Made by a program: the position numbers and the translations under genes. Of a DNA stretch of 64,000 nt, positions 10,297 to 50,808 are shown in pieces (within the stretch, counting starts at the first letter, position 1; the number at the start of each line of letters is the position of its first letter). The notes under the pieces were generated by a model. It was not told the DNA's origin, searched no databases, and saw nothing but the letters and a program-made list of their open reading frames with translations. Location of the stretch: assembly GCF_003668995.1 (NCBI RefSeq), contig NZ_CP033068.1:4340001-4404000 (forward strand). The letters are read 5' to 3'. Source of the stretch: Flavobacterium sp. 140616W15 (GTDB lineage: Bacteria; Bacteroidota; Bacteroidia; Flavobacteriales; Flavobacteriaceae).

Positions 10297-10304
10297 TACT
10301 TTTG
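10297..10304 (+). promoter_or_regulatory. -7 promoter element of lspA
   Basis: TACTTTTG matches TAnnTTTG exactly and ends 20 nt before the lspA ATG. The upstream element would fall inside the preceding terminator and no TTG is visible at the right spacing. Confidence 0.45.
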
Positions 10305-10324
10305 CGCCAATAAAAAATTATAAA

Positions 10325-10921
10325 ATGTCACTACGAAAAGCGTATTTACTTATTTTCATTATTTTACTTATTGATCAGGTTTCTAAAATTTACATTAAAA
10401 CAAACTTTGTTTTGAGTGAAGAGGTAGAAGTCTTTAAATGGTTTAAGATTCTTTTTATTGAAAATGAAGGAATGGCTTGGGGAACAAAAATTCCAGGTGA
10501 ATACGGAAAATTGATTTTGACTGTGTTTAGGATTTTTGCAGTTTTCGGTATAGCGTATTGGCTGTACGATTCTATAAAAAAACAAAGTTCAACGTATTTA
10601 ATTGTTGCTATTTCTTTGATTATGGCTGGAGCAGCAGGGAATATTATAGATTCAGTTTTTTATGGAGTGATTTTCGATGATAGTTATAATAACTTAGCTA
10701 CATTGTTTGCTCCAGAACATTACGGAACATTGTTTCATGGTAAAGTGGTTGATATGTTATATTTTCCTATTTGGGAAGGGAATTTACCAACTTGGTTGCC
10801 AATATGGGGTGGAGAACCATTTAAATTTTTTAATGCAATTTTTAATTTTGCCGATATGGCGATTTCTACAGGAGTTGGGATTTTAATTGTCTTTAATAAA
10901 AAAGCATTTAACAAGCACTAA
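10325..10921 (+). CDS. lspA: Lipoprotein signal peptidase (signal peptidase II)
   Basis: Cleaves the signal peptide of prolipoproteins in the inner membrane. Four membrane helices are visible. Family motifs are LIDQVSK near the N-terminus, NEGMAWG, AGAAGNIIDSV, and the two catalytic aspartates in KVVDMLYFP and NFADMAIS. At 198 residues it is longer than the E. coli enzyme because of an insertion around residues 115-160, common in Bacteroidota. The window encodes several lipoprotein substrates, for example SusD. Confidence 0.93.
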   Translation: MSLRKAYLLIFIILLIDQVSKIYIKTNFVLSEEVEVFKWFKILFIENEGMAWGTKIPGEYGKLILTVFRIFAVFGIAYWLYDSIKKQSSTYLIVAISLIMAGAAGNIIDSVFYGVIFDDSYNNLATLFAPEHYGTLFHGKVVDMLYFPIWEGNLPTWLPIWGGEPFKFFNAIFNFADMAISTGVGILIVFNKKAFNKH

Positions 10922-35810: not shown

Positions 35811-38114
35811 TTATTCGTAATATAATTGAGAGGCACTTATTTCTTGTTTTTCTTTGCCTTCTTGACGGATGAAGCACTGTAAAACAGAACTTCCAGCAGC
35901 ATCGAAATAGCTGATGTTTATTTTGTGAAATCCTTTTTCGAGTTTTGCTGCTCCGAAAGCTTCATTGATCCAATGTCTTCCGTCGTTATCAACAATAAGT
36001 TGGTTGTCGATAAATAATTTGGCACCATCATCTACAATAGTAGAAAATTCATATTGTGCTGTTTCGGGAATATAGATATAGCTGTCAAACTTTAAGCCCA
36101 TATATAGATTCTCTTTTGATTTGTATTTTTTCATCTCGATTACGCCTTGATGTATTCCAGACTTAGTAAATTTTATGGTGTCTAGTTCTAGTGTTTGCTG
36201 CGCGAATTTATTTGTGTAAGAATATTTTAATCCATTTTTTGTTGGCTTAATAGTTAATGCAGGCTGGATTTCTGAATTTTTAACGGAAATTGTGGTAACA
36301 GAACTTCTTCTTCCACTTGGACTTATTTGTACTACTTTTATATTTCTAAATTCTCCTTTTGGGATGTAAATAGTAACTGGTTTTTTGTAATTACTAGCAG
36401 TTTCATCAGGGTTGTAGCCATCAATGGTATAGAAAATTTGCCCATTTTTAATAGTTGGTTGCATCTCCAGTATATATTTGGAAGCTATAACAGCAGTATC
36501 TTGAATTCCAAATGGAGTAGGGACTTTGTATAGTCTTTTCTGAGATTCTAATTTTTCTATATGATGTGGAAATCTTTTTAGCATTAAATTAGAGTAATTT
36601 TTATTCTTTGTTTCTGTCCAGGCAATTTCTGCAAATGGAAATAATCTTGGGTAAAGCATATAGTTTAGCTTAGCTGGACTTGTAACATATTCGGACCAAA
36701 TATTAGCTTGAACACCATAAATGTATTTTTGTTGCTCGATAGTTAAGCTATCTACTGGTGTGGGATTGTAATTGTACACTTCGTGAACGGTTGTTAAGCG
36801 TCCAACAGATAATGGTTCTTGTAATGAATATCCTTGATTATGGTCAAAATAAACATAATCCTCGGGTGTCATGATTACTTTGTGTTTTTCTCTTGCTGCT
36901 GCTATTCCGCCAGATTCTCCTCTCCATGACATAACTGTAGCATTAGGAGCGAGACCACCTTCTAAAATTTCATCCCATCCAAAGATTTGCCTTCCATTTG
37001 CATTAAGGTATTTCTCCATACGTTTTATGAAGTAACTTTGAAGTTCATGTTCGTTTTTTAGACCTAGTTCTTTTATTCTCTTTTGACAATTTGGACATTT
37101 TTCCCATCTTGATTTTGGGCATTCATCTCCACCAATATGGATGTATTCGCTAGGAAAAAGTGTCATTACCTCCTTCAGAACATCTTCTAAGAAAACAAAA
37201 GTCTCTTCCTTACCTGCGCAAAAAACATCTTCAAATACGCCCCAAGACTCAATTACTTTTAAGTCTGATGAGGGGAAACAGGCTAAATTTGGATAAGCAG
37301 CAACAGCAGCAGACGCATGCCCTGGCATTTCAATTTCTGGAATTACGTTTACAAAATGATCTTCAGCAAATTTTACAACTTCTTTAATTTCTTCTTGTGT
37401 ATAATATCCTCCGTATGGAATATTGTCAAAAAATCTTGGAAATCTTTCAAACTTATTTCCAACAAGTGTTTGTGCTCTTTTAGAACCAATTTCTGTGAGT
37501 TTTGGGTATTTTTTTATTTCAATTCTCCATCCTTGGTCATCAGTTAAGTGCCAATGAAAATTATTTAGTTTGTAATAGGACATTTGGGCAATGAAATCTT
37601 TTATGACTTCTGTAGAAAAAAAGTGTCGGCAAACATCTAGATGTAAACCTCTGTATTGATATCGGGGTTGATCTATAATTTCAACGGTTGGTAGTTTTAT
37701 CTGGGAATTAACGGTTGGATTATTTGGTAAGAGTTGAAGTAAACTTTGTACGGCATAAAATAAACCTTGTTCTTGACCTGTAACAAAAATCCCTTTTGGG
37801 GTAATATTTATTTTATAGGCTTCCTTGTTTGTTTTTGTTGAAGCTGGTTCTGTTGTAAATTGAACTAGAATGGCAGCTTTATTTTTTGGTGTGTTTTTGT
37901 TTATAACAGATTCAAAAATTTGAGCTGTTTTAAGTTCTTTAGGTGTGTACTTGTTGTTTTTAAAAACAATTTTTATTTGACCTTTTATAGTAATGCTATC
38001 GCCCGTTTCCTTGTAGAAATTTGGTGCTGGAATGATGGTGGAATTATTTAATGACTCTTGGGCATTTCCTAAAGAATAGCATAGTATTAAAATGAATAAG
38101 AGGTTTTTTTTCAT
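35811..38114 (-). CDS. Secreted GH20 beta-N-acetylhexosaminidase with PA14-like domain
   Basis: Removes terminal beta-linked GlcNAc from chitin oligomers or glycans. The start is taken at ATG 38114 (767 residues) because it begins a good signal peptide, MKKNLLFILILCYSLGNAQ; the ATT-rich frame upstream adds nine poor residues. Order of parts: GH20b-like domain (to about 140), catalytic barrel with HWHLTDDQGWR and the catalytic Asp-Glu pair in HIGGDECPKSRW, a chitobiase-type C-terminal domain (from about 540), and a PA14-like lectin domain (YEFSTIVDDGAKLFID...). No type IX sorting tail, so probably periplasmic. It heads the cluster with a GCAA-N5-TTGC site upstream. Confidence 0.9.
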   Translation of the reverse strand: MKKNLLFILILCYSLGNAQESLNNSTIIPAPNFYKETGDSITIKGQIKIVFKNNKYTPKELKTAQIFESVINKNTPKNKAAILVQFTTEPASTKTNKEAYKINITPKGIFVTGQEQGLFYAVQSLLQLLPNNPTVNSQIKLPTVEIIDQPRYQYRGLHLDVCRHFFSTEVIKDFIAQMSYYKLNNFHWHLTDDQGWRIEIKKYPKLTEIGSKRAQTLVGNKFERFPRFFDNIPYGGYYTQEEIKEVVKFAEDHFVNVIPEIEMPGHASAAVAAYPNLACFPSSDLKVIESWGVFEDVFCAGKEETFVFLEDVLKEVMTLFPSEYIHIGGDECPKSRWEKCPNCQKRIKELGLKNEHELQSYFIKRMEKYLNANGRQIFGWDEILEGGLAPNATVMSWRGESGGIAAAREKHKVIMTPEDYVYFDHNQGYSLQEPLSVGRLTTVHEVYNYNPTPVDSLTIEQQKYIYGVQANIWSEYVTSPAKLNYMLYPRLFPFAEIAWTETKNKNYSNLMLKRFPHHIEKLESQKRLYKVPTPFGIQDTAVIASKYILEMQPTIKNGQIFYTIDGYNPDETASNYKKPVTIYIPKGEFRNIKVVQISPSGRRSSVTTISVKNSEIQPALTIKPTKNGLKYSYTNKFAQQTLELDTIKFTKSGIHQGVIEMKKYKSKENLYMGLKFDSYIYIPETAQYEFSTIVDDGAKLFIDNQLIVDNDGRHWINEAFGAAKLEKGFHKINISYFDAAGSSVLQCFIRQEGKEKQEISASQLYYE

Positions 38115-38138
38115 GTTTGGATTTTGATTGGTTAAAAA

Positions 38139-38146
38139 CAAATTTA
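38139..38146 (-). promoter_or_regulatory. -7 promoter element of the GH20 gene
   Basis: TAAATTTG on the minus strand, 24 nt before the ATG. There is no TTG at the -33 position. The GCAA-N5-TTGC site begins 30 nt upstream, the same distance as at susC. Confidence 0.45.
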
Positions 38147-38176
38147 AAGTTTATAATGGGATTAGTTGATTTTTGT

Positions 38177-38189
38177 GCAAAAAAATTGC
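38177..38189. promoter_or_regulatory. Putative operator GCAA-N5-TTGC (GH20 side)
   Basis: GCAAAAAAATTGC, a 13-bp inverted repeat, one of six in the cluster. It lies upstream of the GH20 -7 box in the divergent region shared with the DeoR gene. Confidence 0.55.
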
Positions 38190-38265
38190 ATTGTGTGTTT
38201 TGGTATTTAATATATTGTAAATGATAATATTGTGTTGTTTTATTGTTCTATTTTTATTTTGGTTA

Positions 38266-38278
38266 GCAATATTATTGC
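38266..38278. promoter_or_regulatory. Putative operator GCAA-N5-TTGC (DeoR side)
   Basis: GCAATATTATTGC is a perfect palindrome. It covers the region 10-23 nt upstream of the deoR -7 box, where RNA polymerase binds, so occupation should repress the regulator gene. Confidence 0.6.
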
Positions 38279-38288
38279 ATTATTTGCT

Positions 38289-38296
38289 TATTTTTG
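38289..38296 (+). promoter_or_regulatory. -7 promoter element of the DeoR gene
   Basis: TATTTTTG matches TAnnTTTG and ends 19 nt before the ATG at 38316. Confidence 0.5.
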
Positions 38297-38315
38297 TTCT
38301 AATAAATAGAATCTT

Positions 38316-39089
38316 ATGAATGATAATGAATTGGTGAATTATACCAAGGAAGAAAGAAAAGCTCATATTTTAAAAGAGATTAATTTGCATACCCGAGTGA
38401 GTTTTGACACACTTTCTAATCGGTTGTTTGTTTCAGAAGATACTATACGAAGAGATATAAATGAACTTGAGTCTGAGTCATTATTGATAAAAGTAAAAGG
38501 TGGGGCTATGACAAAAGCATACCATCATTCTTCGGCATCACAAACTTATGCGGGTGAATCTAAGCAAATTATCGGAAAAAAAGCAGTTGATTTACTTCAT
38601 GACGGGATGGTTTTATTACTTGGTGGAGGAACGACTATTAGAGAGTTCATTCGATTAATTCCTAATGATTTGAATCTTACTATTTTTACTGTCACTGTTT
38701 TGTCTGCTGTTGAACTTTTGGACAAACCAAATGTTAAAGCCATTATGATTGGAGGAAGTATTTCTCCTTATAGTCAAATGTGTGTTAGTGGAGATGTATA
38801 TCATCAGTTGTCAAGTATTAAGGTTGATTTATTAATTTTAGGGACAAATGCGCTAGATGTTGAAGGTGGTTTTTCAGATTCAGATTGGGATACTGTTCAA
38901 GTTAAAAAGGCAATGATTCAATCTTCTCGAAAAACGGCTATACTTACTATATCAGAAAAATTAGATACTGTTTTAAAGATGAAAATCGCGAGTTTACCTG
39001 AGGTTGATTATGTTATAACTGAGATAAATCCGGATGATGAAAAATTAAAACTATATAAGCAGGCCGTTCCGAGTTTGATTCTAATTTAA
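38316..39089 (+). CDS. DeoR-family transcriptional regulator
   Basis: A 257-residue sugar-sensing regulator. The N-terminal winged HTH shows RKAHILKEINLHTRVSFDTL and FVSEDTIRRDINELE (residues about 14-55). The C-terminal sensor domain (DeoRC/ISOCOT fold) contains LLLGGGTTIREFIRLIP and VDLLILGTNALD. DeoR sensors usually bind a phosphorylated sugar; KDPG or KDG would fit the cluster but is inference. It is divergent from the GH20 gene, overlaps the M19 gene end by 4 bp, and is the best candidate to bind the GCAA-N5-TTGC sites. Confidence 0.88.
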   Translation: MNDNELVNYTKEERKAHILKEINLHTRVSFDTLSNRLFVSEDTIRRDINELESESLLIKVKGGAMTKAYHHSSASQTYAGESKQIIGKKAVDLLHDGMVLLLGGGTTIREFIRLIPNDLNLTIFTVTVLSAVELLDKPNVKAIMIGGSISPYSQMCVSGDVYHQLSSIKVDLLILGTNALDVEGGFSDSDWDTVQVKKAMIQSSRKTAILTISEKLDTVLKMKIASLPEVDYVITEINPDDEKLKLYKQAVPSLILI

Positions 39090-40156
39090 GACCAATTTTT
39101 CAATAAGAAGTCGATCCAGTTTTGGTGGAATATTTTTTTTAAATCTTCCTCTGTATAACCATGACTTCTAAAAATGAAAACTAGTTTTTGTAAATCGGCT
39201 ATAGTGTTTAAGTCATATGGTGTTTGCTCTGTGCCAAATGCCCCATCTAGATCTGACCCTATACCAATATGATTTGTATTTCCTGCTAGTTGACAAATGT
39301 GATCCATGTGTTTAAATACAGTTTCTAGATTGCATTGTGTGCTTAATGGAGTAGAAACACCTCTTTGCCAGTTAGGAACTAACATCCATGCATCTAAGGC
39401 TCCACCAATCACAGCTCTTCTAGAAATAAGCTCGTTGATTTGATCGTCGCTATATTGCCTGTTGTGATCTACCAAGCTTCGGCAATTATTATGGCTTGCC
39501 CAGATAGGACCATTAAAATTTTCTAATGCTTGCCAAAATGCATCATCACATAAATGAGTTGCATCAAGGATAATATTTAAGCGCTCCATTTCTTTAAGCA
39601 ATTCGATTCCGTTTGCTCCCATTTTTCCAGTTGAATCTGTCCCGTTGGCATAGCGACCCGGGCCATAATGTGCAGGTCCAATAGCTCTTAATCCATAATT
39701 ATATGCTTTTTCAACATATGAAATGTCGATAATAGAATCTGCTCCTTCTAGGCTTAGTATATATCCGATAGGTTTCTTATCATTTGGAGTCCCATCATTC
39801 CATAATTCAATTTGTTTTTGAAGAGATTTCTTATCAGTAATAGAGAACATTTCTCCTTCTTCTTCCATAGTTTTGTACCATGCAAGTTGTGCTTGAGTTT
39901 GCGCCCAAGCTTGTTGTGGAGAGTTCCATCCAGGAATTTTACTATCGGGTTTAACAAATCTTGCAATCTGAGTAGCTACAACAATACCAATGTTTCCTTT
40001 TCTTAAGTCAGGAAACGAAACGGTAGCTTTTTCTCTATCAGGTTTGTCATTCATTCCTTTTTCTAGATGGCGTAATGTGGCTACATCATTTCTTAAATCT
40101 CTGTTCCATTCCATAGCATTCATGCTTAGGTCAAGGTGTGCGTCAAATATGAACAT
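39086..40156 (-). CDS. M19-family (membrane dipeptidase-like) amidohydrolase
   Basis: A 356-residue zinc hydrolase of the renal dipeptidase family, whose members often act on amides of D-amino acids. Metal ligands are visible in FDAHLDLS (residues 5-9), LSLEGAD, DATHLCDD and ASHNNCRSL, and the closing GSDLDGAFG motif is present. No signal peptide, so cytoplasmic. It is the last gene of the minus-strand operon. In this setting I infer that it removes the acetyl group of N-acetyl-D-glucosaminic acid, an N-acetylated D-amino-acid analogue. A true dipeptidase role cannot be excluded. Confidence 0.85.
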   Translation of the reverse strand: MFIFDAHLDLSMNAMEWNRDLRNDVATLRHLEKGMNDKPDREKATVSFPDLRKGNIGIVVATQIARFVKPDSKIPGWNSPQQAWAQTQAQLAWYKTMEEEGEMFSITDKKSLQKQIELWNDGTPNDKKPIGYILSLEGADSIIDISYVEKAYNYGLRAIGPAHYGPGRYANGTDSTGKMGANGIELLKEMERLNIILDATHLCDDAFWQALENFNGPIWASHNNCRSLVDHNRQYSDDQINELISRRAVIGGALDAWMLVPNWQRGVSTPLSTQCNLETVFKHMDHICQLAGNTNHIGIGSDLDGAFGTEQTPYDLNTIADLQKLVFIFRSHGYTEEDLKKIFHQNWIDFLLKNWS

Positions 40157-40168
40157 AATGTTGTTATT

Positions 40169-41284
40169 TTAAATGTTTATTTTTCTGTTGCGAGCAAGAA
40201 CAGCCCACTGGTCGTGAATGTCTTGCTGAGAATTCACTATTTGAACAGTTTCGTAAAGAGCACAAGTCGGGCAAATGTGGTAAGGGATAGCATAGATGGT
40301 ATCGCCTAAGTTGTAGGGTTTGTTTCCTTTGTTTTCTAATACTAAGTGTTCTTCTGAATGTGATATTGGAGTTAATTTGTCGTCGTTTAAAATGGTCAGG
40401 CGTTTGTCTAATGAATTCTCTGATGCGACAGATTTATATCCAATATCTATACATAAAGTGTTTTCTGTGGGTTTAGAAATTACTGTTCCAACTAAAACCG
40501 CCGCAGGTTTGAATTTTTGTTCTGATAAATTAGTTTGATAATTTATATCCCAGAATACAAATGTACCTGGGCTACATTCGATATTTTTTTGACTACTATA
40601 AAAAGGGAATGTATTAGATCCACCTGCAACTATCTTTAGTTTGTAACTTAGTTTTTGTTCTAATATAGAAAGCTTATCGATTATTTGGTTAAATGTATCC
40701 GATGCTTCTTTTGTTCTTTGCTCAACTGTGCCTTTTAGATGACCATCATAAATGTGCAATCCAAGAAGTTCTATATTTGATAGTTTATTTATTTCATAGA
40801 TTAAATGATCCCAATTGCTTTTATAATTTACACCAGTTCTGTCCATTCCGGCATTTATATCTAGGTAAATTTTTAATGTTATATTGTTCTTTTTACCTAA
40901 TTCTGATAATTCTTTTGCAGTCTCAAGGTTATCAACAATAGTAGAGAAAATAAGATTAGGATATTTCAGTAATAAAGTGATCCAGCGTTGTTGTTTTAAT
41001 CCTGTGGGTTGATAGGCTAATAATATGTCTAAAACATTGTGAATTGCACATAATTCTGCTTCAGCAATAGTTGCACATTTAACCTTGTTTATTTGGTATG
41101 TTTTGTACAGATCGAGTACTTCTCCTAATTTATGTGTTTTTATATGTGGCCTCAATTTTTGAATATCTCCTTTTACGGATTCAATTAAATGCTCAATATT
41201 GTATCGAACACGGTCGGTATAAAGTGCTAAAAAAGGAGTGTCGATACGTGTTTTTTGATTTATTTCCCACCAATTATTTCCCAT
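40169..41284 (-). CDS. D-serine dehydratase/D-threonine aldolase-type PLP enzyme
   Basis: A 371-residue fold-type III PLP enzyme. The PLP lysine is in LRPHIKTHK (near residue 50). The C-terminal metal site reads YHICPT (His and Cys near 336 and 338). As I recall, His-x-Cys is typical of zinc D-serine dehydratase while D-threonine aldolase has His-x-Asp, so ammonia elimination is favoured. Here the likely substrate is 2-amino-2-deoxy-D-gluconate, giving 2-keto-3-deoxygluconate plus ammonia. It lies 12 bp from the M19 gene and 4 bp from the aldolase. Confidence 0.8.
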   Translation of the reverse strand: MGNNWWEINQKTRIDTPFLALYTDRVRYNIEHLIESVKGDIQKLRPHIKTHKLGEVLDLYKTYQINKVKCATIAEAELCAIHNVLDILLAYQPTGLKQQRWITLLLKYPNLIFSTIVDNLETAKELSELGKKNNITLKIYLDINAGMDRTGVNYKSNWDHLIYEINKLSNIELLGLHIYDGHLKGTVEQRTKEASDTFNQIIDKLSILEQKLSYKLKIVAGGSNTFPFYSSQKNIECSPGTFVFWDINYQTNLSEQKFKPAAVLVGTVISKPTENTLCIDIGYKSVASENSLDKRLTILNDDKLTPISHSEEHLVLENKGNKPYNLGDTIYAIPYHICPTCALYETVQIVNSQQDIHDQWAVLARNRKINI

Positions 41285-41288
41285 GTTT

Positions 41289-41936
41289 TTATTTTCTAGA
41301 TTTTTCGACTACTGTGATTAAGTTTTTAAAAGCTTCATAGGATTTGTTATAATCCAACTGAGATAAAGTTTCTTTCGAAAACAAATGAGAGCCAATACCT
41401 ACACAAACAACACCTGTTTTAAACCAAGACTTTAAATTGTTCTCTTCTAAAGTTACACCACCACTTGGCATTAGTTTTAAATTTGGAAAAGGGGCTTTTA
41501 TCGCTTTTATATAATCTGGACCTCCTACCATATCTGCAGGAAAAAGTTTTACTATTTCGGCTCCTAATTTGTTGGCCTGAATAATCTCATTTAAAGTTGA
41601 TGCTCCTGGAATCCAGTATAGATTATTTTTGAAGCAATAATTACCAATTTCAGGATCTGTATGTGGACATACTATACATTCGGCTCCTAGTTTATGGTAT
41701 GTTTCGGCATCGTTTAAAGTTAAAATGGATCCTACGGCTAACTTAATATTTAAATTATTTGTATTTCTGAAGTTTACCATTTGAGCAAAAATTTCTTTTG
41801 CATCTGGTGAACGTGCTGCAAATTCGATGATTTTAATCCCTGAATCTGAAGCGGATTTTAGTATTATTTCAGCAGTTTTAATCCCAATTTGTGTAACTAA
41901 AGGGAGTACTCCTTGCGTTTTTAAAATATCGTACAT
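41289..41936 (-). CDS. KDPG aldolase (2-keto-3-deoxy-6-phosphogluconate aldolase)
   Basis: A 215-residue class I aldolase of the KDPG/KHG family. It splits 2-keto-3-deoxy-6-phosphogluconate to pyruvate and glyceraldehyde 3-phosphate. The Schiff-base lysine is in AEIVKLFPADMVGG, the catalytic glutamate is probably in IKIIEFAAR, and the phosphate-binding end is LMPSGGVTLEEN. It sits between the PLP enzyme and the kinase, so the three steps are encoded side by side. Confidence 0.9.
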   Translation of the reverse strand: MYDILKTQGVLPLVTQIGIKTAEIILKSASDSGIKIIEFAARSPDAKEIFAQMVNFRNTNNLNIKLAVGSILTLNDAETYHKLGAECIVCPHTDPEIGNYCFKNNLYWIPGASTLNEIIQANKLGAEIVKLFPADMVGGPDYIKAIKAPFPNLKLMPSGGVTLEENNLKSWFKTGVVCVGIGSHLFSKETLSQLDYNKSYEAFKNLITVVEKSRK

Positions 41937-41950
41937 TTTGTAACTTTGTT

Positions 41951-42982
41951 TTATCTATTAATTCTATTGCTTGTGCCATTCTTGATGAAATGATTTATTT
42001 CTTCTGGTGTAGTTATGGCAAAATCCCCTGTTATACTCTGTTTTATAACGCCACAAGCTGTTGCCCAATCAATACATTCCTGTCCCGACAGGTTATTTTT
42101 AAGGCTATAGAGTAATCCTGCTGTGAAGGCATCTCCTGATCCGATTTGATCAGTTACTAAATGTATTAAATATGGTTTTGATTCATAAAATGTGTCTTTA
42201 TGTATCAACATACCTGAATATAAATGAGTCTGACCTTCTGATTTTCTGAAACTCATGGCAAGTGTATTCAGATATGGCATTTTCTCTTTTAGCAGCTCAT
42301 AAGTTTTTATAAACCGGTCTGAATCTGAATCATTTTTGTTTGTTTTAATACCGAAATATATTTCGGTTGAATCTAAATCGGCAATAGTTACGCTACTGTA
42401 ATAAAGTAATTCAGGCATAATCTCCGAAGGGTTTTTCCCATATTGCCATAGTTTAGTACGATAGTTAAAGTCGGAAGAAATTGTTATGCCTTTGCTATGA
42501 GCAGCTAATATTGCTTTTTTGCATACTAAATTAGCTTCGTTAGATACACCAGGGCTAATACCTGACCAATGAAAATGGGTAGTGTCTTCTAGTACTTTGT
42601 CCCAATTAATCTCATTTTCTTGGATTGTTGCAAAAGCCGAATTGCTACGGTCATAGATCACTTGGGATTGTCTGATTTGGTTGCCAGATTCAATGAAATA
42701 TAAACCAATTCTGTCTCCTCCATAAATGCAATTTGTAGTGTCTACTTTGTATTTATGTAGTTCGTTTAATGCGAGTTGAGATAAGTCGTTGTTGGGTAAA
42801 CGAGTAACGTAATTGGTTTTTATGCCTAATTGTGAAAGTAATACACAAACATTTGCTTCGGCTCCACCTATATGGATTTGCATTTCTTTGGCTTGTGTAA
42901 ATCGATTGCCATGAGCTACGCCCATCCGCAATAATAACTCGCCAAATGTTGTAATTTTTGTTTGTGAAGATTCCGTTTTCAT
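41951..42982 (-). CDS. kdgK: PfkB-family sugar kinase, probably 2-keto-3-deoxygluconate kinase
   Basis: A 343-residue ribokinase-family enzyme. The N-terminal motif is TTFGELLLRM and HIGGAEANVCVLLSQLG; the C-terminal catalytic motif is TDQIGSGDAFTAGLLYSL with the base Asp. The substrate is assigned from the adjacent KDPG aldolase rather than from specificity residues. It phosphorylates KDG to KDPG in the cytoplasm. RidA lies 11 bp upstream. Confidence 0.85.
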   Translation of the reverse strand: MKTESSQTKITTFGELLLRMGVAHGNRFTQAKEMQIHIGGAEANVCVLLSQLGIKTNYVTRLPNNDLSQLALNELHKYKVDTTNCIYGGDRIGLYFIESGNQIRQSQVIYDRSNSAFATIQENEINWDKVLEDTTHFHWSGISPGVSNEANLVCKKAILAAHSKGITISSDFNYRTKLWQYGKNPSEIMPELLYYSSVTIADLDSTEIYFGIKTNKNDSDSDRFIKTYELLKEKMPYLNTLAMSFRKSEGQTHLYSGMLIHKDTFYESKPYLIHLVTDQIGSGDAFTAGLLYSLKNNLSGQECIDWATACGVIKQSITGDFAITTPEEINHFIKNGTSNRINR

Positions 42983-42993
42983 TTCAAATGGAT

Positions 42994-43461
42994 TTAGTAT
43001 AATTCAAAAATAGCTTCAACCTCTACAGGGATATTATCGGGTAACGAACCCATTCCAACGGCGCTTCTTACTCCAATTCCGTTTTCTTGTCCCCATACTT
43101 CTGCAAATAATTCACTGCAACCATTGATTACATAAGGATGTCTTAAGAAATCGGAGCTACAATTAACCATTCCGAGTACTTTGATGACTCTTTTTACTGC
43201 ATTTAGGCTATCAAAATTTGTGACAATGGTAGATAACATTGTTAATCCTACTTGTCTCGCCGCAAGCTTTCCTTCTTCAATGTCCATGTCTTCTCCGATG
43301 CGACCTATAATTAATGATTTGTCATCTCTTACAGGACCATGCCCAGATAGGTATAAATATTTGCCATCTATTAAAAATGGTTTGTATATCCCAAGTGGCA
43401 TTGGAGCTGGGGGTAATGTTAAGTTAAGCGTTTCAAATTTTTCTTGTGGTAATAAATTCAT
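42994..43461 (-). CDS. RidA-family enamine/imine deaminase
   Basis: A 155-residue protein of the YjgF/RidA family. Motifs include LYLSGHGPVRDD and VKVLGMVNCSSDFLRHP, and GIGVRSAVGMGSLPDNIPVE near the end contains the conserved arginine. I chose ATG 43461; the longer frame to 43542 runs back into gntP and adds 27 residues unlike the family. RidA hydrolyses reactive enamine products of PLP dehydratases, which matches the D-serine-dehydratase-like enzyme in the same operon. Confidence 0.88.
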   Translation of the reverse strand: MNLLPQEKFETLNLTLPPAPMPLGIYKPFLIDGKYLYLSGHGPVRDDKSLIIGRIGEDMDIEEGKLAARQVGLTMLSTIVTNFDSLNAVKRVIKVLGMVNCSSDFLRHPYVINGCSELFAEVWGQENGIGVRSAVGMGSLPDNIPVEVEAIFELY

Positions 43462-43466
43462 TGTAG

Positions 43467-44786
43467 TTAGTGTATAAAAGTGTTTAATATAAAAATAAAA
43501 ATAATTCCAAGGATAGAAATAAACGATTCCATTACTGTCCATGATTTAATGGTATCTTTCATACTGGTGCCAAAGTATTCTTTGAACATCCAGAATCCAG
43601 GGTCGTTTACATGTGAGCACATAAGGCTACCTGCGCCTATTGAGAGAACTAACAAATTTGGATCTAGTCCTTGTAATTTTAGTAATGGTAATAATACGCC
43701 AGCTGTCATTAGTCCAGCGGCTGTAGCTGAGCCAACACAAATTCGGATTATGGCCGCAATTAGCCAAGCAAGTAAATAAGGGTGGATGTCTATTTTTATT
43801 AAAGAGTCAACAATGGTTTGGCTTACACCACTTACCATCATTATTTCTTTTAAACTTCCTGCTCCACCAATTATAAGTATTATTAAGGCAACGTCTTTGA
43901 TGGCTACTGCATATTCGTCCATGATTGTTCTCATGTTTTTACCAGTGCGAACGCCTAATGTATAGGTGCAAATTATTAACGAAATTAGCATAATAATACT
44001 TGGTTCGCCTATAGTTTGACATAGTAAATTAACTTGTTCATTTTTCCAGATTAATGGAAGTATTGAGGTAATTGTTAGTCCAAAAACTGGAAATAGTGAA
44101 GATGTTATGCTAGTAAAAAAACTAGGTTTTATGTCTAAATTTATAGGTTCTTCGGTTGGGACTATGGTGTTCTTATCATCAGACTTAATGTTTTTAAGTG
44201 TGTTTGAGAATAGTAAGCCCGCAATAAGAATGGTCGGAATTGAAACGATGATTCCATAAATTAAAACAAGGCCTATGTCTGCATTTAAAATATTGCTCAA
44301 CGCCATTGGCGAAGGATGAGGAGGCAGAAAGCCATGTGCTACCGAAAGAGATGCAAGCATTGGGATGGCTATGTAAACTTTGGGTAATTTAAATTGATTG
44401 GCTACAGAAAATATTAAAGGAACCAGAAGTATAAAGCCTACGCTATAAAATAAGGGAATTCCAACGATAAACCCTGTAATCATTAAGCCTAGACGAACAT
44501 ATTTTTCCCCTGTCCATTGCATTACGGTTTTTGCAATTACAGATGCTGCGCCAGAGGAAACGGTAAGTTTACCAATACAGGTACCAAAAATAATTATCAA
44601 GGAAATTGATCCAAGCATGTCGCCCAGTCCTTTTTGAACGGTTCCTGTTAATGATGTTATTGGCAGTCCTAATGCAAGGCCTGCTAATAAAGATGTTATG
44701 ATAAAGGCAATAAAGGGATTGATTTTAAACCACGTTATTTGTAATACTAAAAAAATAATGCAAGCCGAAAGAATTAATATACTCAT
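43467..44786 (-). CDS. GntP-family permease
   Basis: A 439-residue inner membrane permease with about 12 helices. GntP proteins import gluconate and related aldonic acids with protons. Family features are GLALGLPITSLTGTVQKGLG near the start, HGFLPPHPSPMALS, VGSATAAGLMTAGVLLPLL and GSLMCSHVNDPGFWMFKEYF. In this cluster the likely cargo is N-acetyl-D-glucosaminic acid. First intact gene of the operon; only 5 bp separate it from ridA. Confidence 0.9.
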   Translation of the reverse strand: MSILILSACIIFLVLQITWFKINPFIAFIITSLLAGLALGLPITSLTGTVQKGLGDMLGSISLIIIFGTCIGKLTVSSGAASVIAKTVMQWTGEKYVRLGLMITGFIVGIPLFYSVGFILLVPLIFSVANQFKLPKVYIAIPMLASLSVAHGFLPPHPSPMALSNILNADIGLVLIYGIIVSIPTILIAGLLFSNTLKNIKSDDKNTIVPTEEPINLDIKPSFFTSITSSLFPVFGLTITSILPLIWKNEQVNLLCQTIGEPSIIMLISLIICTYTLGVRTGKNMRTIMDEYAVAIKDVALIILIIGGAGSLKEIMMVSGVSQTIVDSLIKIDIHPYLLAWLIAAIIRICVGSATAAGLMTAGVLLPLLKLQGLDPNLLVLSIGAGSLMCSHVNDPGFWMFKEYFGTSMKDTIKSWTVMESFISILGIIFIFILNTFIH

Positions 44787-45036
44787 TTAGTTTATCTGTT
44801 TATTCCACCATATTTTTGTTAAAAAAGAATCGTTTCTTTGGCGTTTTATGGTTTCAGCTAAATTAGTGGAATTAACTGAATATTTGCCAGTTAGGTATTT
44901 TATGCGTCTTGGAATTGTGCCATTTGTAACTTTTCCTGGAAAATTAACAGGAGTTAATACCGGGTAGCCTATTCTTCTCCAATTTGATTAATACTTTGTT
45001 CGATAAAATGCTTTTTAATTGCAACATCATACATAT
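44787..45036 (-). pseudogene. Remnant of a second susD gene (C-terminal end)
   Basis: The minus strand encodes a typical SusD/RagB C-terminus: NWRRIGYPVLTPVNFPGK, then NGTIPRRIKYLTGKYSVN and a final FLTKIWWNK, ending at 44787, right beside the gntP start. The frame is broken by a stop just upstream of NWRRIG and the N-terminal 400 residues are absent. It differs from the intact SusD at 45569-47074, so it is a separate paralogue. Confidence 0.8.
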
Positions 45037-45144
45037 TTACTTAATATGCTATTCCTCCAATAAATGTTAAGTAAAATAACTTTTTATTATAATTTAACTT
45101 ATTTACATTGATTTAATGTTTTTTGTTGGTTTTTGATTAGCAAT

Positions 45145-45152
45145 CAAATATA
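45145..45152 (-). promoter_or_regulatory. -7 promoter element of the gntP operon
   Basis: TATATTTG on the minus strand, upstream of the susD remnant and gntP. The TTG inside the nearest GCAA-N5-TTGC site (minus strand 45177-45175) is 22 nt upstream and could act as the -33 box. Confidence 0.45.
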
Positions 45153-45173
45153 TATAATTAATTTCTACATATA

Positions 45174-45208
45174 GCAATATTTTTGCATAATTAATGCAAA
45201 AATATTGC
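45174..45208. promoter_or_regulatory. Double putative operator upstream of the gntP operon
   Basis: Two 13-bp sites, GCAATATTTTTGC (45174-45186) and GCAAAAATATTGC (45196-45208), are arranged as one large palindrome and spaced 22 bp apart, two helical turns. Flanking sequence on both sides resembles the susC control region at 50600-50740. The rest of the gap 45037-45479 has no gene. Confidence 0.65.
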
Positions 45209-45479
45209 AGTGTTTTTTATTCTCAAAAGGCGGATGTTCGTTGAGCTGGGTGGTTTTGATGAATAAATGTGATTGGGCTAAAATCAAAAATCTTTTAAGT
45301 TAGAATTAGAGAAAATACATGGAGTTGAATATTTTCTGTATTGAAAAAAGTAGGTGGTTTTGGTTAAATTGATGTTTTTAGGATAGGTTTTATATGATTA
45401 TGGGTAATTTAAATTGGTTGTTAGCAAAATGACTGTGTTGTTTTTGCGGGTTATTATTTCAAGAAAGTATTTTAAAATT

Positions 45480-45522
45480 ATAGTGCCATCCACAATTCAA
45501 AATGAATTGTGAACGGCACTAT
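45480..45522 (-). terminator. Hairpin terminator after susD
   Basis: ATAGTGCC and GGCACTAT enclose a second stem, CACAATTC with GAATTGTG. It lies 47 nt after the susD stop on the minus strand and is followed by an AT-rich tail without a long T run. It should separate susCD transcription from the gntP operon. Confidence 0.65.
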
Positions 45523-45568
45523 TTCCTTGTGGTATTGGAGGTGTGTTATTTTTTAAAAGATTTTGTTT

Positions 45569-47074
45569 TTAGTCAACATCCCACCAAACCTTAGCTAACC
45601 AGCTGTTGTTGTCATATTTTGCACTTGCTGCTAGGAAGTTTTCTTTATTACTAGTAGATTCTTCTATTGGATAAGGCATTCTTTTAGGTATTACTCCTCC
45701 AGTTTCAGAGTTAACGTTTGTTATTGGAATTAACGTTGGGAAATTGGTTCTTCTGTAATTACTATACGCTTCCATTCCGTTTAAAAACAGAGTAAGCCAC
45801 TGTTGTGTTGCAATTTCTTCTAGCTCTTTTCCAGGAGTAAGATTCTTTGTAGCTACAAAAGCTGTAACTGCATTGTCGTCGATAATACTTGCGTCTTTAA
45901 AGATAGACCATTGTCTAATTCCTGCTTCGATTCCTTTTTTGTACAAATCAGCTGTGTTTCCAGAATGTAATCCTCTAAAAGAAGCTTCTGCTAAAAGTAA
46001 CATTGTTTCTGAATAGGTGAGGTGTAAATAAGGAGCGTTGTTTGCGTATAGGTAAGGTTGAAGATTAGAAAGAATGGCTCCTCCTCCTCCAGGATGATCC
46101 CATCTGTAATTGTTTGGATTTATACCTTCGTAAACACCATTGGAGTTGGGTAGAAACCATATTTTTTTTCTAGGATCGTTACCTAATGTGTTTAGTAGGA
46201 TTGTTGTAGGATGGTCTACAAGATCTCCGGTTCCTTTTATTGCATGAGACATTCCGTTTCCATTTGTTAGTGCACCAGCAGTTTCTGATGGGGAAGAATC
46301 GTGTTTCATAAAGCAGTTGTCTTCGTTGCTGGTAAAAATCCCATTGGTAACCGCTTTTTGGATTTGCTCTTTTGCCAATGTGCTATTTACTTTTGATATT
46401 CTCATTGCACAACGCAATCTAATTGAGTTAATCAATTTTTGCCATTTAACTGCATCACCTGCGTAAAAAAGATCTCCTTTTATTGCGTCTGTCCCTGATT
46501 GCATTTGAGATTGAGCTTCGTCTAAAAGTTTAAAGAAATCAGTATAGATGTCTTCTTGATTATCATATTTTGGGTAATAAATTTTACCATAATAGCCTAA
46601 TCCTGCTTGAGAGTATGGAACATCTCCATACGTATCTGTCAAACGTTGAAAAACCATTACTTTTAATGTTTTCGCAACAGCATTTATTTTAGTGTATTCA
46701 GCTTTCCCATCTGTTCTTTCAAGTACATCTATTAGATTACGTACAATTCCGCCTCCATAATTAGAATTCCAAAGTGCGCCTTGATATTCGCTACTTGAGA
46801 TGTAGAACGAACCGTAATTAGCTACACTCCAAGAGCCACCAAGATGTTGTATAAATCCTTCACCATAGATGAGGTTGGCTCTCCATTGTTCAAACCAACC
46901 ACCCGATAGTGCAGCTTCTACTCCAGTAAGTTGTATAGAAGGATCTATGCTTACGAAGGCTTCAGGATTGGTGTTTTTGTCTCTAAAAAGTTCGTCATCG
47001 GCACAATTAATTGAGGTAAGTAGTAAAACTGCACCTAATATGTATATTGGCAATTGTGTTATATGTTTTTTCAT
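45569..47074 (-). CDS. SusD/RagB-family nutrient-binding outer membrane lipoprotein
   Basis: A 501-residue surface lipoprotein that caps the SusC transporter and binds glycans. The signal ends in LLLTSINC (lipid on Cys24). TPR-like helices and the long C-terminal part (QWLTLFLNGMEAYSNYRRTN, then GGVIPKRMPYP and AKVWWD) mark it as the SusD-like type 2 group. It follows susC by 18 bp. In this locus the ligand is inferred to be a chitin-type oligosaccharide. Confidence 0.9.
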   Translation of the reverse strand: MKKHITQLPIYILGAVLLLTSINCADDELFRDKNTNPEAFVSIDPSIQLTGVEAALSGGWFEQWRANLIYGEGFIQHLGGSWSVANYGSFYISSSEYQGALWNSNYGGGIVRNLIDVLERTDGKAEYTKINAVAKTLKVMVFQRLTDTYGDVPYSQAGLGYYGKIYYPKYDNQEDIYTDFFKLLDEAQSQMQSGTDAIKGDLFYAGDAVKWQKLINSIRLRCAMRISKVNSTLAKEQIQKAVTNGIFTSNEDNCFMKHDSSPSETAGALTNGNGMSHAIKGTGDLVDHPTTILLNTLGNDPRKKIWFLPNSNGVYEGINPNNYRWDHPGGGGAILSNLQPYLYANNAPYLHLTYSETMLLLAEASFRGLHSGNTADLYKKGIEAGIRQWSIFKDASIIDDNAVTAFVATKNLTPGKELEEIATQQWLTLFLNGMEAYSNYRRTNFPTLIPITNVNSETGGVIPKRMPYPIEESTSNKENFLAASAKYDNNSWLAKVWWDVD

Positions 47075-47092
47075 TTTGATGAAATTAGGTTG

Positions 47093-50000
47093 TTAGAAAG
47101 ATAATTGTAAGTTGAATCCATATGATCTTCTGTAAGGTAAAGAACCGTATTCAAAACCTTGTCCGTTACCACTTGTATAGGTAGATTCAGGATCTATATT
47201 TGGAACTTTTGAGTAGATAGTCCATAGGTTTCTTGCAATAACAGAAAATTTAAATTTATCGAATCCTGTTCCTTTTAACCATTTTTTTGGAAAATCATAA
47301 CCTAAAGTAACTTCTCTTAATTTTACATAAGAAGCATCATAAATAAAAGGCTCAGCAGTAGCGTTGTCGCCATATAAACTTCTCCAATAGGTTTGTGGGT
47401 TTACTGGAGTTGTGTTGTTTTCGTATCCAGTTACATTACCATTACTGTCTTTGATTTCCTTAACACCATCTACAATAAGTCCAGCTGTTGGAATTAATTG
47501 TGCTATATCTGCTGGTGTTTTTCCTGCGGCAATTTGCTCACCATACCAAGCATTGTATTCATCTCTTCCTTCTAATGTTAGGTTGGATAATCCAGTATTG
47601 GCTGCATTTGCATTGGTCATTGAATACATTTTTCCTCCAAACTTCATGTCTATGTTGGTTCTTAGACTGATTCCTTTATATGAAAATTCATTGGTAACTC
47701 CACCAATCCAGTCTGGAGCTACTCTTCCTAGGTTTTCATATGTCTGTGTTAATAAAGGATTTCCATTTGCTCCGATGATAACTTTTCCATCAGGTGATCT
47801 TTGAAATTTTCTACCATAAATTTCTGTAGAACTTTCTCCTACTTTAGCTATAATTTGAGCTCCTGCCCATCTTGCGTTAGATACTATTTGAGTATCTGTA
47901 TCGCTTGTTAATTCTAATAGTGTATTTTTGTTTTTTGCAAAGTTTAAGGTTATATCCCAATTAAAACCGTTTGGATTTCTGAATATTCCTGCTTTTAGCA
48001 AAGCTTCGATACCTTTATTCTCAACTGTTCCTGCATTTGCATTAGCACCTACGAAACCAGATGTTTGTGAAGTATTTAAAACAATTAGTTGGTCTTTTGT
48101 TTTGGTGTAATAATAGGATAAGTCTAGTTCTAAACGATTTTTGAAGAATCCTAAATCAGCTCCAACTTCATAGCTGGTTGTGAATTCGGGTTTTAGAGTG
48201 TTGTTTGGAATGATGTTATTTGCAACCGATCCAATTGGATTTCCTAATAAAGGTTTTGCTTGCATGTTGTAAGTAAGTGCTGTTGCATAAGGTGTTTCTA
48301 GTGCTTTTGCAGTTCCTGCCCATGAAGCTCTAATTTTTCCAAAATTTAGCACGCCACTATTCATGTCTAAACCTTCAGTAAAGATGAAACTTGTTGATAC
48401 AGAAGGGTAGAAAAACGAATAGTTATTGTTGTAATCAGAGCTAGAAGCAGAAGCAAGTGTTGAGTTCCAGTCATTACGGCCTGTAAAATCTAAAAATAAA
48501 TAATTTTTATAATTTGCTCTTAAATAAGAATATAAAGATCTTACTAATATTTCGTCATTGGTTTTTGGATTTAAAACACTTGATAAGAAATTAGATTGTT
48601 TGTTTTGTCCATTAATAATCATATCAGTAAGTGTACTCCCAGTAAAGATTCTTTGAGAGTTTCTTTGATTAGCACCAACTCCTAGAGAGATATTAAAATC
48701 GCCTATTGATTTTTGGGCATTTAATAACGCTTCGGTGTTATATTCTTGAAATGTAATAGTGTTGTTGATTAAAGAACCATTTTGTCTCCCTGGCCATGTT
48801 GTTCCTGCGTTTACAAAATCTGAAGATGTAAATGTGAATCGGTCAATTCCAGCTCTTCCTGTTGCGCTTAACCAATCCGTAATGGCATATGTTGCACTGA
48901 AATTGGCTATTATTCTATTTTTTTCAGTTTCGTTTTTGTTTTCATTTAATACAAAATAAGGATTTAATCGGTATGCGTCCGAGTTCCAAGGGTAATAATT
49001 TCCATTTTCGTCTTCATAGTTTTTTAACCATGCTTGATCAATATTAGGAGCTAGTGCGGCTACAGATAAACCAAGGTTGCTAGCGTCATCTCCTAAAGAA
49101 GGTCTGTTATTAGTGTCTTCTATAATGTAGCTGAATTTAGCATCTATTGTAAGTTTCTTTATCTGAGAATTTACACCCAATGTAAATGTGTTTCTTTTTA
49201 AATCACTTTTTGGTATAACATCAGTAGCGTTTAGATTAGAATAGCTTGCGCGGAAAGTTGTGTTTTCACCACCACCAGAAAGACTAAAGCTGTTATTAAC
49301 GGTAACACCAGTTCTAAAAAAATCTTTTATGTTGTTTTCTACGTGCTGATACGGTTTGTATGAACCATCAAAAATTCTTACCATAACATCTGGAGATCCA
49401 AATTTAGGTCCCCAAGCACTTGTGGTAGCATTTTGGCTATTCTTTATGTCATTGGTAAGGGGTAGTCTTCCATTTGATCCAGTACCATATTGAGTTTGGT
49501 AGTCTTCATATTTAGTACTAATCTGGTCAAAAGTTGTTGTGCTGTTCCATTCCGTTTTTAAAGAGTTTCTTTTTCCTTTTTTTGTTGTAATAACAATTAC
49601 TCCATTGGCACCACGTTCTCCGTAAAGTGCACTGGCAGCTCCTCCTTTTAGGACAGAAATGTTTTCGATGTCATCAATGTTTATGCTTGATAATCCATCT
49701 CCGTTGTCTACTCCTTCGGCATATCTTCCGGATTTAGAATCTGTAATTCCTGCTAATCCTGTGTTTCCTAGAGTAACTCCGTCTACAATGTATAGTGGTT
49801 GATTGTCGCCACTAATAGATCTGTTACCTCTTATAACAACACGTGAGCTACCGCCTATACCAGCTGTAGTTTGTGAGATGTTTACACCAGCAACTTTTCC
49901 GTATAATGATTGAGCGAGACTTAATGTTGGGTTATCGGCTAATTCTTTTCCTTTTACATCTTGAAAAGAATAACCAAGTTCTTTTTTCTCTCTTTTTATT

Positions 50001-50326
50001 CCTAAGGCTGTAACTACAACTCCAGAAAGGACTGTTGCAGCAGCTTCTTTTAGTTGTACGTCAATAGTGTTGGAATCACCTATAAGTATATTTTGAGTTT
50101 CTAGTCCGAGGAAAGAGATTGTTAGTGTTTTTCCTTTTTGCGCTTCAATAGAAAATTTTCCATCAAAGTCGGTGGTCACGCCTCTTCTTTCATCTTTTAC
50201 CGCTATTGATGCGCCTGGTAGTGTAATACCGTTAGAGTCGGTGACAGTTCCTTTTATTGTCTTTACTTGTGCTAGGGTAATTTGCACAGTAAACAAAAAC
50301 ATAATTATTAAAATTGTTTGTTTCAT
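47093..50326 (-). CDS. SusC/RagA-family TonB-dependent outer membrane transporter
   Basis: A 1077-residue importer. In order: signal peptide (ending TLAQVKT), CarboxypepD-like domain (GTVTDSNGITLPGASIAVK), TonB-dependent plug with the SusC-type stretch IRGNRSISGDNQPLYIVDGV and ISVLKGGAASALYGERGANG, and a 22-strand barrel ending in FNLQLSF. It pairs with SusD and uses TonB energy to import oligosaccharides. A GCAA-N5-TTGC double site lies upstream. Confidence 0.95.
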   Translation of the reverse strand: MKQTILIIMFLFTVQITLAQVKTIKGTVTDSNGITLPGASIAVKDERRGVTTDFDGKFSIEAQKGKTLTISFLGLETQNILIGDSNTIDVQLKEAAATVLSGVVVTALGIKREKKELGYSFQDVKGKELADNPTLSLAQSLYGKVAGVNISQTTAGIGGSSRVVIRGNRSISGDNQPLYIVDGVTLGNTGLAGITDSKSGRYAEGVDNGDGLSSINIDDIENISVLKGGAASALYGERGANGVIVITTKKGKRNSLKTEWNSTTTFDQISTKYEDYQTQYGTGSNGRLPLTNDIKNSQNATTSAWGPKFGSPDVMVRIFDGSYKPYQHVENNIKDFFRTGVTVNNSFSLSGGGENTTFRASYSNLNATDVIPKSDLKRNTFTLGVNSQIKKLTIDAKFSYIIEDTNNRPSLGDDASNLGLSVAALAPNIDQAWLKNYEDENGNYYPWNSDAYRLNPYFVLNENKNETEKNRIIANFSATYAITDWLSATGRAGIDRFTFTSSDFVNAGTTWPGRQNGSLINNTITFQEYNTEALLNAQKSIGDFNISLGVGANQRNSQRIFTGSTLTDMIINGQNKQSNFLSSVLNPKTNDEILVRSLYSYLRANYKNYLFLDFTGRNDWNSTLASASSSDYNNNYSFFYPSVSTSFIFTEGLDMNSGVLNFGKIRASWAGTAKALETPYATALTYNMQAKPLLGNPIGSVANNIIPNNTLKPEFTTSYEVGADLGFFKNRLELDLSYYYTKTKDQLIVLNTSQTSGFVGANANAGTVENKGIEALLKAGIFRNPNGFNWDITLNFAKNKNTLLELTSDTDTQIVSNARWAGAQIIAKVGESSTEIYGRKFQRSPDGKVIIGANGNPLLTQTYENLGRVAPDWIGGVTNEFSYKGISLRTNIDMKFGGKMYSMTNANAANTGLSNLTLEGRDEYNAWYGEQIAAGKTPADIAQLIPTAGLIVDGVKEIKDSNGNVTGYENNTTPVNPQTYWRSLYGDNATAEPFIYDASYVKLREVTLGYDFPKKWLKGTGFDKFKFSVIARNLWTIYSKVPNIDPESTYTSGNGQGFEYGSLPYRRSYGFNLQLSF

Positions 50327-50620: not shown

Positions 50621-50650
50621 TAATTAATTCTCATTGATTGAAATTTTTTT

Positions 50651-50674
50651 GCAAAAATATTGCAAAAATATTGC
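50651..50674. promoter_or_regulatory. Overlapping double putative operator upstream of susC
   Basis: Two identical 13-bp sites, GCAAAAATATTGC, at 50651-50663 and 50662-50674 share two bases, 11 bp apart (one helical turn). A further half site, GCAATATTT, follows at 50673. Position relative to the -7 box matches the GH20 promoter. Confidence 0.65.
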
Positions 50675-50808
50675 AATATTTTTTTTGATAATGTTTTTTT
50701 ATTCCCAAAATAGCGGTGTTTATTGAGTTGAGTGTTTTTTTTAAATGGCAATGTTTATATTTGGATTTGATAAAAAATAATAATTTTAAAAAGAGTATTT
50801 TTACAAAT

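Follow-up and report, generated by a model that had tools for sequence, protein, structure and literature searches.

Why should a flavobacterium keep a β-N-acetylhexosaminidase beside genes that resemble those of D-amino-acid breakdown? The question is raised by a gene cluster of Flavobacterium sp. 140616W15, whose complete genome measures 4.94 Mb; the window that we analysed is a 64-kb stretch of it (contig NZ_CP033068.1, positions 4,340,001 to 4,404,000). The cluster encodes a GH20 β-N-acetylhexosaminidase, a DeoR-family regulator, a SusC/SusD (SusCD) pair, a GntP-family permease, a Rid-family protein (RidA), a PfkB-family kinase, a 2-keto-3-deoxy-6-phosphogluconate (KDPG) aldolase, a pyridoxal phosphate (PLP) enzyme with a D-serine dehydratase-type domain and an M19-family amidohydrolase. 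A sequence-only reading had already recognized these families, and they are confirmed at the coordinates given in Table 1. The Pfam matches named here all lie above the Pfam cut-offs, and NCBIfam gives a concordant picture, mostly at scores below its own cut-offs.

The cluster is best read as a putative DeoR-controlled regulon for consuming a β-linked N-acetylhexosamine oligosaccharide that ends in an N-acylated 2-amino-2-deoxy-aldonic acid. The most likely such acid is N-acetylglucosaminic acid (GlcNAc1A), derived from chitin that other organisms have oxidized at C1. We give this reading a probability of roughly 0.57. SusCD would import the oligomer, a periplasmic GH20 would release N-acetylglucosamine (GlcNAc) and GlcNAc1A, and GntP would carry GlcNAc1A inward. 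In the cytoplasm, M19 would deacetylate GlcNAc1A, which is an N-acyl-D-amino acid. The PLP enzyme would then dehydrate and deaminate glucosaminate, with Rid hydrolysing the enamine or imine, and the product would be 2-keto-3-deoxygluconate (KDG). Finally, the PfkB kinase and the KDPG aldolase would convert KDG to pyruvate and glyceraldehyde-3-phosphate.

Organization and conservation of the cluster

The genes for GntP, RidA, the kinase, the aldolase, the PLP enzyme and M19 occupy the minus strand in this order, separated by 5, 11, 14, 4 and 12 bp, and in all likelihood form one six-gene operon. The regulator gene is divergent from GH20 and convergent on the end of the operon, where it overlaps the end of the M19 gene by 4 bp. 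SusC and SusD are encoded upstream of the operon, and 782 bp separate SusD from GntP.

A search of 299 Flavobacterium genomes, including the source genome, found the PLP gene in 45. In all 45 carriers the PLP gene is accompanied by GH20, DeoR, M19 and GntP, within 8 open reading frames (ORFs) of each other. Rid is present as an ORF in 44 carriers and was located by tblastn in the 45th. Since the genes stay together across the genus, their grouping is not due to chance. The cluster adjoins sdhCAB in most carriers, and sdhB lies within the examined stretch in 43 of the 45. In the genome G428 there is an additional copy of the PLP gene, located on another contig (L190) with no M19 or GH20 nearby.

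Kinase and aldolase occur in 33 of the 45 carriers, a SusC also occurs in 33, and both features are found in 32. When kinase and SusCD are scored together, 32 carriers have both, 11 have neither and one has each alone. This correlation was rejected as evidence because, in a tree of 52 genus loci and two outgroups, the kinase state changes twice and the SusCD state three times, and independent pairs give a non-significant result.

Table 1. Features of the cluster in window coordinates
Feature	Position	Strand	Basis or remark
GH20 β-N-acetylhexosaminidase	35811..38114	-	ATG at 38114; ORF extends to TTG at 38141 (35811-38141)
Strict operator-like site between GH20 and DeoR	38176..38190		relaxed site also at 38266-38279
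DeoR-family regulator	38316..39089	+	DeoRC, 125.7 bits
M19-family amidohydrolase	39086..40156	-	Peptidase_M19, 159 bits
Fold-III PLP enzyme, D-ser_dehydrat domain	40169..41284	-	Pfam; HxC motif (H336, C338)
KDPG/KHG aldolase	41289..41936	-	PF01081, 106 bits
PfkB-family kinase, most like KDG/KDGal kinases	41951..42982	-	PF00294, 102 bits
Rid-family protein (RidA), 155 aa from ATG	42994..43461	-	PF14588
GntP-family permease, operon gene 1	43467..44786	-	PF02447, 443 bits; TIGR00791, 456 bits
Deletion scar of usual SusCD pair	44796..45085	-	tblastn, three-frame reading
Operator-like sites upstream of lost SusC and GntP	45174..45209		strict at 45184 and 45195
SusD-like lipoprotein, alternative pair	45569..47074	-	PF12771, 272 bits
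SusC-like TonB-dependent transporter, alternative pair	47093..50326	-	TIGR04056, 643 bits
Two overlapping strict operator-like sites	50650..50675		divergent region between SusC and CN-hydrolase gene

A shared operator-like motif

A genus-wide comparison of two promoter regions, GH20/DeoR and SusC/GntP, yielded a motif that consists of TGCA, seven A/T positions and a second TGCA (TGCA-W7-TGCA). There are five strict sites in the window, as against 0.10 expected, and none of 100 shuffles reaches this number. All five are located at promoters of the cluster: one between GH20 and DeoR, two in front of GntP and a SusC gene that has been lost from this position, and two in the divergent region beside the remaining SusC. 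The scan of the source genome covered 521 kb of its 4.94 Mb, and no strict site occurs in the 457 kb of this that lie outside the window. Loci of other genera, 1.15 Mb in total, likewise have none, and 42 of 50 further genus loci contain at least one.

Relaxed sites are distributed in a similar manner. Among the 52 genus loci they precede GH20 in 39 and SusC/GntP in 43, with both positions occupied in 30, and 235 of the 267 relaxed sites sit in one of these upstream regions. Some of the promoters without a site are probably explained by ORF starts placed too far upstream or by loci truncated at an edge. Ten kinase-less loci (L138-L142, L182, L183 and L187-L189) have no site before GH20, and the motif link is therefore weaker there. 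Of these 52 loci, 50 include sdhB, and in none of them does a relaxed site precede that gene; nor is there one in the examined stretches of the source genome's own chitin locus, of one NagB locus and of the hexuronate locus. Because the motif was derived from the same promoters, its enrichment there is partly by construction, which is not true of its absence elsewhere.

In the simplest interpretation, GH20, SusCD and the operon are controlled together by the local DeoR protein, as the putative binder of these sites. Nothing else ties the sugar genes to the amino-acid-like genes as strongly as the shared motif.

Predicted functions of the GH20, PLP and M19 proteins

The GH20 protein (Pfam match of 407 bits) also has GH20b, Fn3-associated and PA14 domains and an N-terminus that appears signal-like by eye. 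Its nearest PDB entry by sequence is 6q63, with 527.6 bits.

The PLP enzyme shares fold III and its domain with the D-serine dehydratase/D-threonine aldolase family, although its similarity to 3anu, 4v15 and 6qkb is low (51-69 bits). It aligns with the D-serine dehydratase 3anu at IPYHxC, the HxC of which binds zinc in 3anu. In contrast, the D-threonine aldolases 4v15 and 7dib and the hydroxyaspartate aldolase 6qkb have HxD at this position. HxC is kept in 97 of 101 aligned relatives, the exceptions being L037, L040, L041 and L061. This residue pattern points to dehydration and deamination rather than aldol cleavage, and we propose that the protein is a putative glucosaminate dehydratase/deaminase.

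In the M19 protein, residues H7, D9, E137, H201, H222 and D302, which we take to be metal ligands, are near-invariant in 105 aligned rows. The protein belongs to the same Pfam family as the membrane dipeptidases 3fdg, 3neh, 3id7 and 1itq and has the same catalytic-site pattern. It differs from them in being cytoplasmic-looking and in forming a separate subfamily, often encoded beside D-amino-acid-type genes. Its N-terminus, again judged by eye, lacks a signal-like start, and it is therefore expected to act after import by GntP. We propose for it the role of a putative N-acyl (acetyl) hydrolase of the amino-aldonate.

Comparison with known chitin pathways

A route resembling D-amino-acid breakdown, which the sequence-only reading had ascribed to marine Pseudoalteromonas, does exist. 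In the available text of PMC9537276, the oxidative chitin pathway of Pseudoalteromonas prydzensis comprises OngOT, OngA (a GH20), OngIT, OngB, OngC, OngD, KdgK and OngR, wherein OngB is a D-aminoacylase-type GlcNAc1A deacetylase. The full set is described there from Gammaproteobacteria and one Betaproteobacterium, and the pathway as found only in Proteobacteria.

We compared the window with four ong-type clusters (L146-L148 and, from Klebsiella, L149). Common to both systems are a GH20, TonB-type import, an inner-membrane symporter, an amide hydrolase, a fold-III PLP deaminase, a Rid protein, a KDG kinase and a local regulator. The parts that differ are a D-aminoacylase (OngB) in place of M19, a sodium:solute symporter (SSS) in place of GntP, an RpiR regulator in place of DeoR and a lone TonB-dependent receptor in place of SusCD. 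In addition, KDPG aldolase is present in the window cluster and in only some ong clusters.

Similarity between individual proteins is limited. The GH20 is 36% identical to OngA over 313 aa, and the kinase is 23% identical to KdgK. The PLP enzyme matches OngC with 24% identity over 225 aa (E 3e-14) and, by eye, OngC has an HxC near its end too (SHPC). The two belong to the same superfamily and are unlikely to be orthologues, a judgement that comes from pairwise similarity. The aldolase is 29% identical over 172 aa to that of Klebsiella. The window Rid protein, of the PF14588 type, resembles the Klebsiella Rid (29% over 68 aa, E 0.001) and has no listed match to OngD. M19 and GntP show no BLAST similarity to ong proteins. 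The two routes thus appear to share logic, not obviously descent, and the window cluster would be a non-orthologous counterpart of ong. Matches in Vibrio campbellii and Cupriavidus were rejected as further ong clusters, since L037 has only OngC/deaminase-like matches and L041 has none by eye.

An OngB-type deacetylase was sought in the source genome with an archaeal D-aminoacylase as query, which gave only a marginal match of 67 residues. Of the 44 other carriers, 42 have no OngB-type match at E <= 1e-5. With no full OngB relative in the source genome, an N-acetylated substrate would most likely be deacetylated by M19.

The route as given in the available text of PMC9537276 is Proteobacterial and OngB-based, and a Bacteroidota version with M19 would therefore be new, as the sequence-only reading had supposed. 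No earlier report of such a version or of this cluster is among the matches listed in our literature searches. Tentatively, and with less confidence than we place in the main reading, we suggest that a second route for C1-oxidized chitin was assembled independently in Flavobacterium. In this route an M19 'dipeptidase' would serve as GlcNAc1A deacetylase, an older D-amino-acid module would have been joined with GH20, SusCD and a KDG kinase and aldolase under one DeoR operator, and bacteria without an LPMO (lytic polysaccharide monooxygenase) would feed on the LPMO products of others. If this is correct, then Flavobacterium recovers LPMO products by another enzyme set, mostly without making an AA10 LPMO, and the M19 family gains a new activity. 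Cross-feeding on oxidized chitin would become testable by single-gene deletions. Moreover, a role would be given to a conserved cluster that is present in 45 of the 299 sampled genus genomes and has no description among the literature matches listed.

The known chitin utilization locus of F. johnsoniae is hydrolytic and relies on a chitinase and NagB; SusCD, GH20 and the link to chitin are features that it has in common with the window (available text of PMC5127042). A related locus (L200) is located at 2.40-2.42 Mb of the source genome, and it contains neither a GntP-PLP-M19-kinase operon nor the motif. Fjoh_0674 is listed merely as another GH20 in the same text (PMC5127042). Its number and position suggest that it is the GH20 of the F. 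johnsoniae copy of the cluster.

These observations bear on the notion that the cluster serves ordinary GlcNAc or chitobiose use, or consists of unrelated genes lying side by side, which we consider very improbable. Chitin loci often include GH20 and SusCD. However, a separate chitin locus without the motif exists in the same genome, and we know of no part played in GlcNAc catabolism by KDG kinase, KDPG aldolase, a D-serine-dehydratase-like enzyme or GntP. The sequence-only reading had stated that NagA and NagB are absent. This holds for the locus, where models for NagA, NagB and NagK have no match among ten cluster proteins. It does not hold for NagB in the genome at large, where a search made for NagB only gave four matches over the cut-off, all outside the cluster; these would favour ordinary GlcNAc use.

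Identity of the sugar acid

Only GntP (TIGR00791) and SusC exceed their NCBIfam cut-offs among the cluster proteins. The kinase scores 346 bits with NF041633 (cut-off 700) and 191 bits with the model for kinases of KDG and 2-keto-3-deoxygalactonate (KDGal), whose cut-off is 440. The aldolase scores 206.7 bits with PRK07114 (cut-off 275), a model for aldolases of 2-keto-4-hydroxyglutarate (KHG) and KDPG, and 99.1 bits with a phosphogalactonate model, again below the cut-off. Because both proteins fall below the cut-offs, we infer their exact substrates. A second kinase/aldolase pair in the source genome, of which the kinase is 41% identical, lies between altronate dehydratase and glucuronate isomerase genes. 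This second pair belongs to a hexuronate operon, and the pair in our operon therefore looks dedicated. A kinase paralogue is encoded elsewhere in the genome in all 14 examined carriers without an in-operon kinase.

Perhaps the same chemistry is applied to another sugar, such as N-acetyl-galactosaminate or N-acetyl-mannosaminate, or to glucosaminate from bacterial glycans or lipid A. The inclusion of bifunctional KDG/KDGal kinases among the kinase model matches is compatible with this, as is the Klebsiella ong-like locus, which has a 2-dehydro-3-deoxygalactonokinase and its aldolase and in which no GH20 was found. The near absence of an LPMO source in the genus, described below, also fits such a substrate. 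Nevertheless, we regard another sugar as rather unlikely, because the KHG/KDPG model matches the aldolase better than the phosphogalactonate model does, and because the cluster is associated with a chitinase. A ChiA-type chitinase (E <= 1e-150) is found in 32 of the 45 carriers and in 16 of the 254 other genomes (odds ratio 36.6, p 7e-21, with no correction for kinship or genome size).

Evidence against oxidized chitin as the substrate

The observations in this section weigh against GlcNAc1A from oxidized chitin as the substrate, or against its use by the source strain, and the NagB matches noted above belong with them. The source genome has no AA10 LPMO, such as was looked for by comparison with the ong pathway, and its owner would therefore need other organisms to oxidize chitin. 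The sequence-only reading had proposed a search of relatives for LPMO genes. Of the 299 genus genomes, 298 have no AA10 LPMO above the cut-off, and the single exception (G152; L202:6488-8059, 523 aa, LPMO_10 at 83 bits) also carries the cluster.

The source genome's canonical chitin locus appears to be broken, through either decay or an assembly error, and the strain may therefore be losing chitin use. In L200 (genome positions 2402001-2421000; ORFs at 5977-10793 and 11176-13307), the GH18 chitinase is divided into a 1274-aa ORF and a separate 310-aa ORF, and the GH20 also occupies two ORFs. The three nearest relatives have the GH18 chitinase in one frame of 1619-1645 aa. In the first part of a further GH20 elsewhere in the source genome (6981-7959; L004, L006), five stop codons interrupt the matched frame.

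The import step is also affected. An adjacent SusC/SusD pair is present together with glycan enzymes, as is expected of a polysaccharide utilization locus and as the sequence-only reading had noted, and yet this is not the cluster's usual pair. Of the 45 genus loci, 32 have the usual pair before GntP, and in the seven for which the gap was measured it amounts to 10-211 bp. As judged from the sequence remnants, it is lost in the source strain. What is left is a scar in which SusC residues 3-37 (44981-45085) are fused to the last ~63 residues of SusD (44796-44987), this SusD end being 70-83% identical to the SusD of relatives (tblastn with the SusC and SusD of five relatives). Import is therefore less certain in the source strain than in its relatives. 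The alternative pair shares only 34-36% identity (SusC) and 29-31% identity (SusD) with the usual one. Pieces with 75-90% identity to the alternative SusD occur in L105 (the 90% match), L111, L191 and L195; they adjoin the usual pair on its upstream side in the first three and are one gene further away in L195.

Other points concern the operon itself. The in-cluster kinase and aldolase are missing in 12 of the 45 carriers. None of the window proteins appears to be orthologous to any Ong protein. Two carriers have OngB relatives besides M19, one near full length and in pieces (G264) and the other partial (G416). Fixed differences were counted at doubly conserved positions by comparing 52 rows from the genus with up to 34 from outside it, with kinship not corrected for. 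By this count M19 has 3 of 132, all conservative, and Rid has 1 of 61. M19 is thus nearly the same outside the genus, and nothing marks the window protein as a new deacetylase. The corresponding numbers are 28 of 143 for GntP and 4 of 71 for the PLP enzyme (P224N, R267T, L281I and H283Y).

The core genes in other Bacteroidota

The last points against GlcNAc1A come from outside the genus. Among 29 loci from other genera of the family, picked by their PLP gene, 22 contain M19 (in one case with just 30% identity), 18 contain GntP and 19 have a Rid ORF, a further Rid being located by tblastn. GH20 and the aldolase are each present in only one of the 29, and the kinase in none. Among 30 loci from the phylum, picked by M19, there are 15 with the PLP gene, 17 with Rid, five with GntP and one with the aldolase, and none with GH20 or the kinase. 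Since the core occurs mostly without GH20 or the kinase in other Bacteroidota, it possibly has a broader or older role in D-amino-acid use.

One possibility is that the window cluster retains this role. A DsdX-like GntP would import N-acyl-D-Ser or N-acyl-D-Thr, or small L-D dipeptides; M19 would act as dipeptidase or acylase; the PLP enzyme and Rid would deaminate D-Ser or D-Thr; and the kinase, aldolase and GH20 would be unrelated neighbours. The wide occurrence of the four-gene core in other Bacteroidota, usually lacking GH20 and always lacking this kinase, is in keeping with such a module, as is the membership of M19 in a dipeptidase family. OngC itself also deaminates D-Ser and D-Thr according to the available text of PMC9537276. 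Arguing against it are the inclusion of kinase and aldolase in the operon of 33 of the 45 carriers, the GH20 that every carrier has and that shares the operator-like motif, and the genus-specific fixed differences in the permease and the PLP enzyme, a pattern that would fit a change of acid substrate (kinship again uncorrected). We therefore consider a pure D-amino-acid module unlikely. Cautiously, we read the differences as the trace of an older module for N-acyl-D-amino acids, in which GntP and the PLP enzyme have shifted to a sugar acid, with M19 little changed.

The oxidized-chitin proposal of the sequence-only reading is partly supported. Its pathway logic is well supported by the KDG-type kinase and aldolase in the operon, the dehydratase-type PLP enzyme, the cytoplasmic-looking M19, GntP, GH20 and the common motif. 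It is weakened by the absent LPMO and by the core that elsewhere is mostly without GH20 and kinase.

Several of the individual loci have arrangements of their own. On a Parabacteroides distasonis plasmid (L038:9620-14237), GntP, a DUF4833 protein, RidA, a PLP enzyme of the D-threonine aldolase type and M19 are encoded with no adjoining GH20 or kinase, which is a further case of the kind that tells against GlcNAc1A. The four-gene core of G095 (L048:7640-12268) lies in one run together with a KDPG-type aldolase, 34% identical to that of the window, and a gluconokinase-like gene is seen nearby by eye. In G113, from another genus, GH20 stands directly before RidA, a PLP gene spread over two ORFs and M19 (L071:7144-11532). 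A locus with M19, SusCD, an aldolase and DgoK (L166) was rejected as an independent version of the cluster, because its kinase and aldolase adjoin a pyrroloquinoline quinone (PQQ) dehydrogenase and a major facilitator superfamily (MFS) carrier, which makes a galactonate-type route likelier. Another context of this M19 subfamily is seen in L172:7262-13235 and in L167, where M19 is found among an aminotransferase-like gene (by eye), a ceramidase-like protein and the PLP gene. Other neighbours of M19 include a class-III aminotransferase (L174, by Pfam), a 3-hydroxyacyl-CoA dehydrogenase and, again, a ceramidase-like protein.

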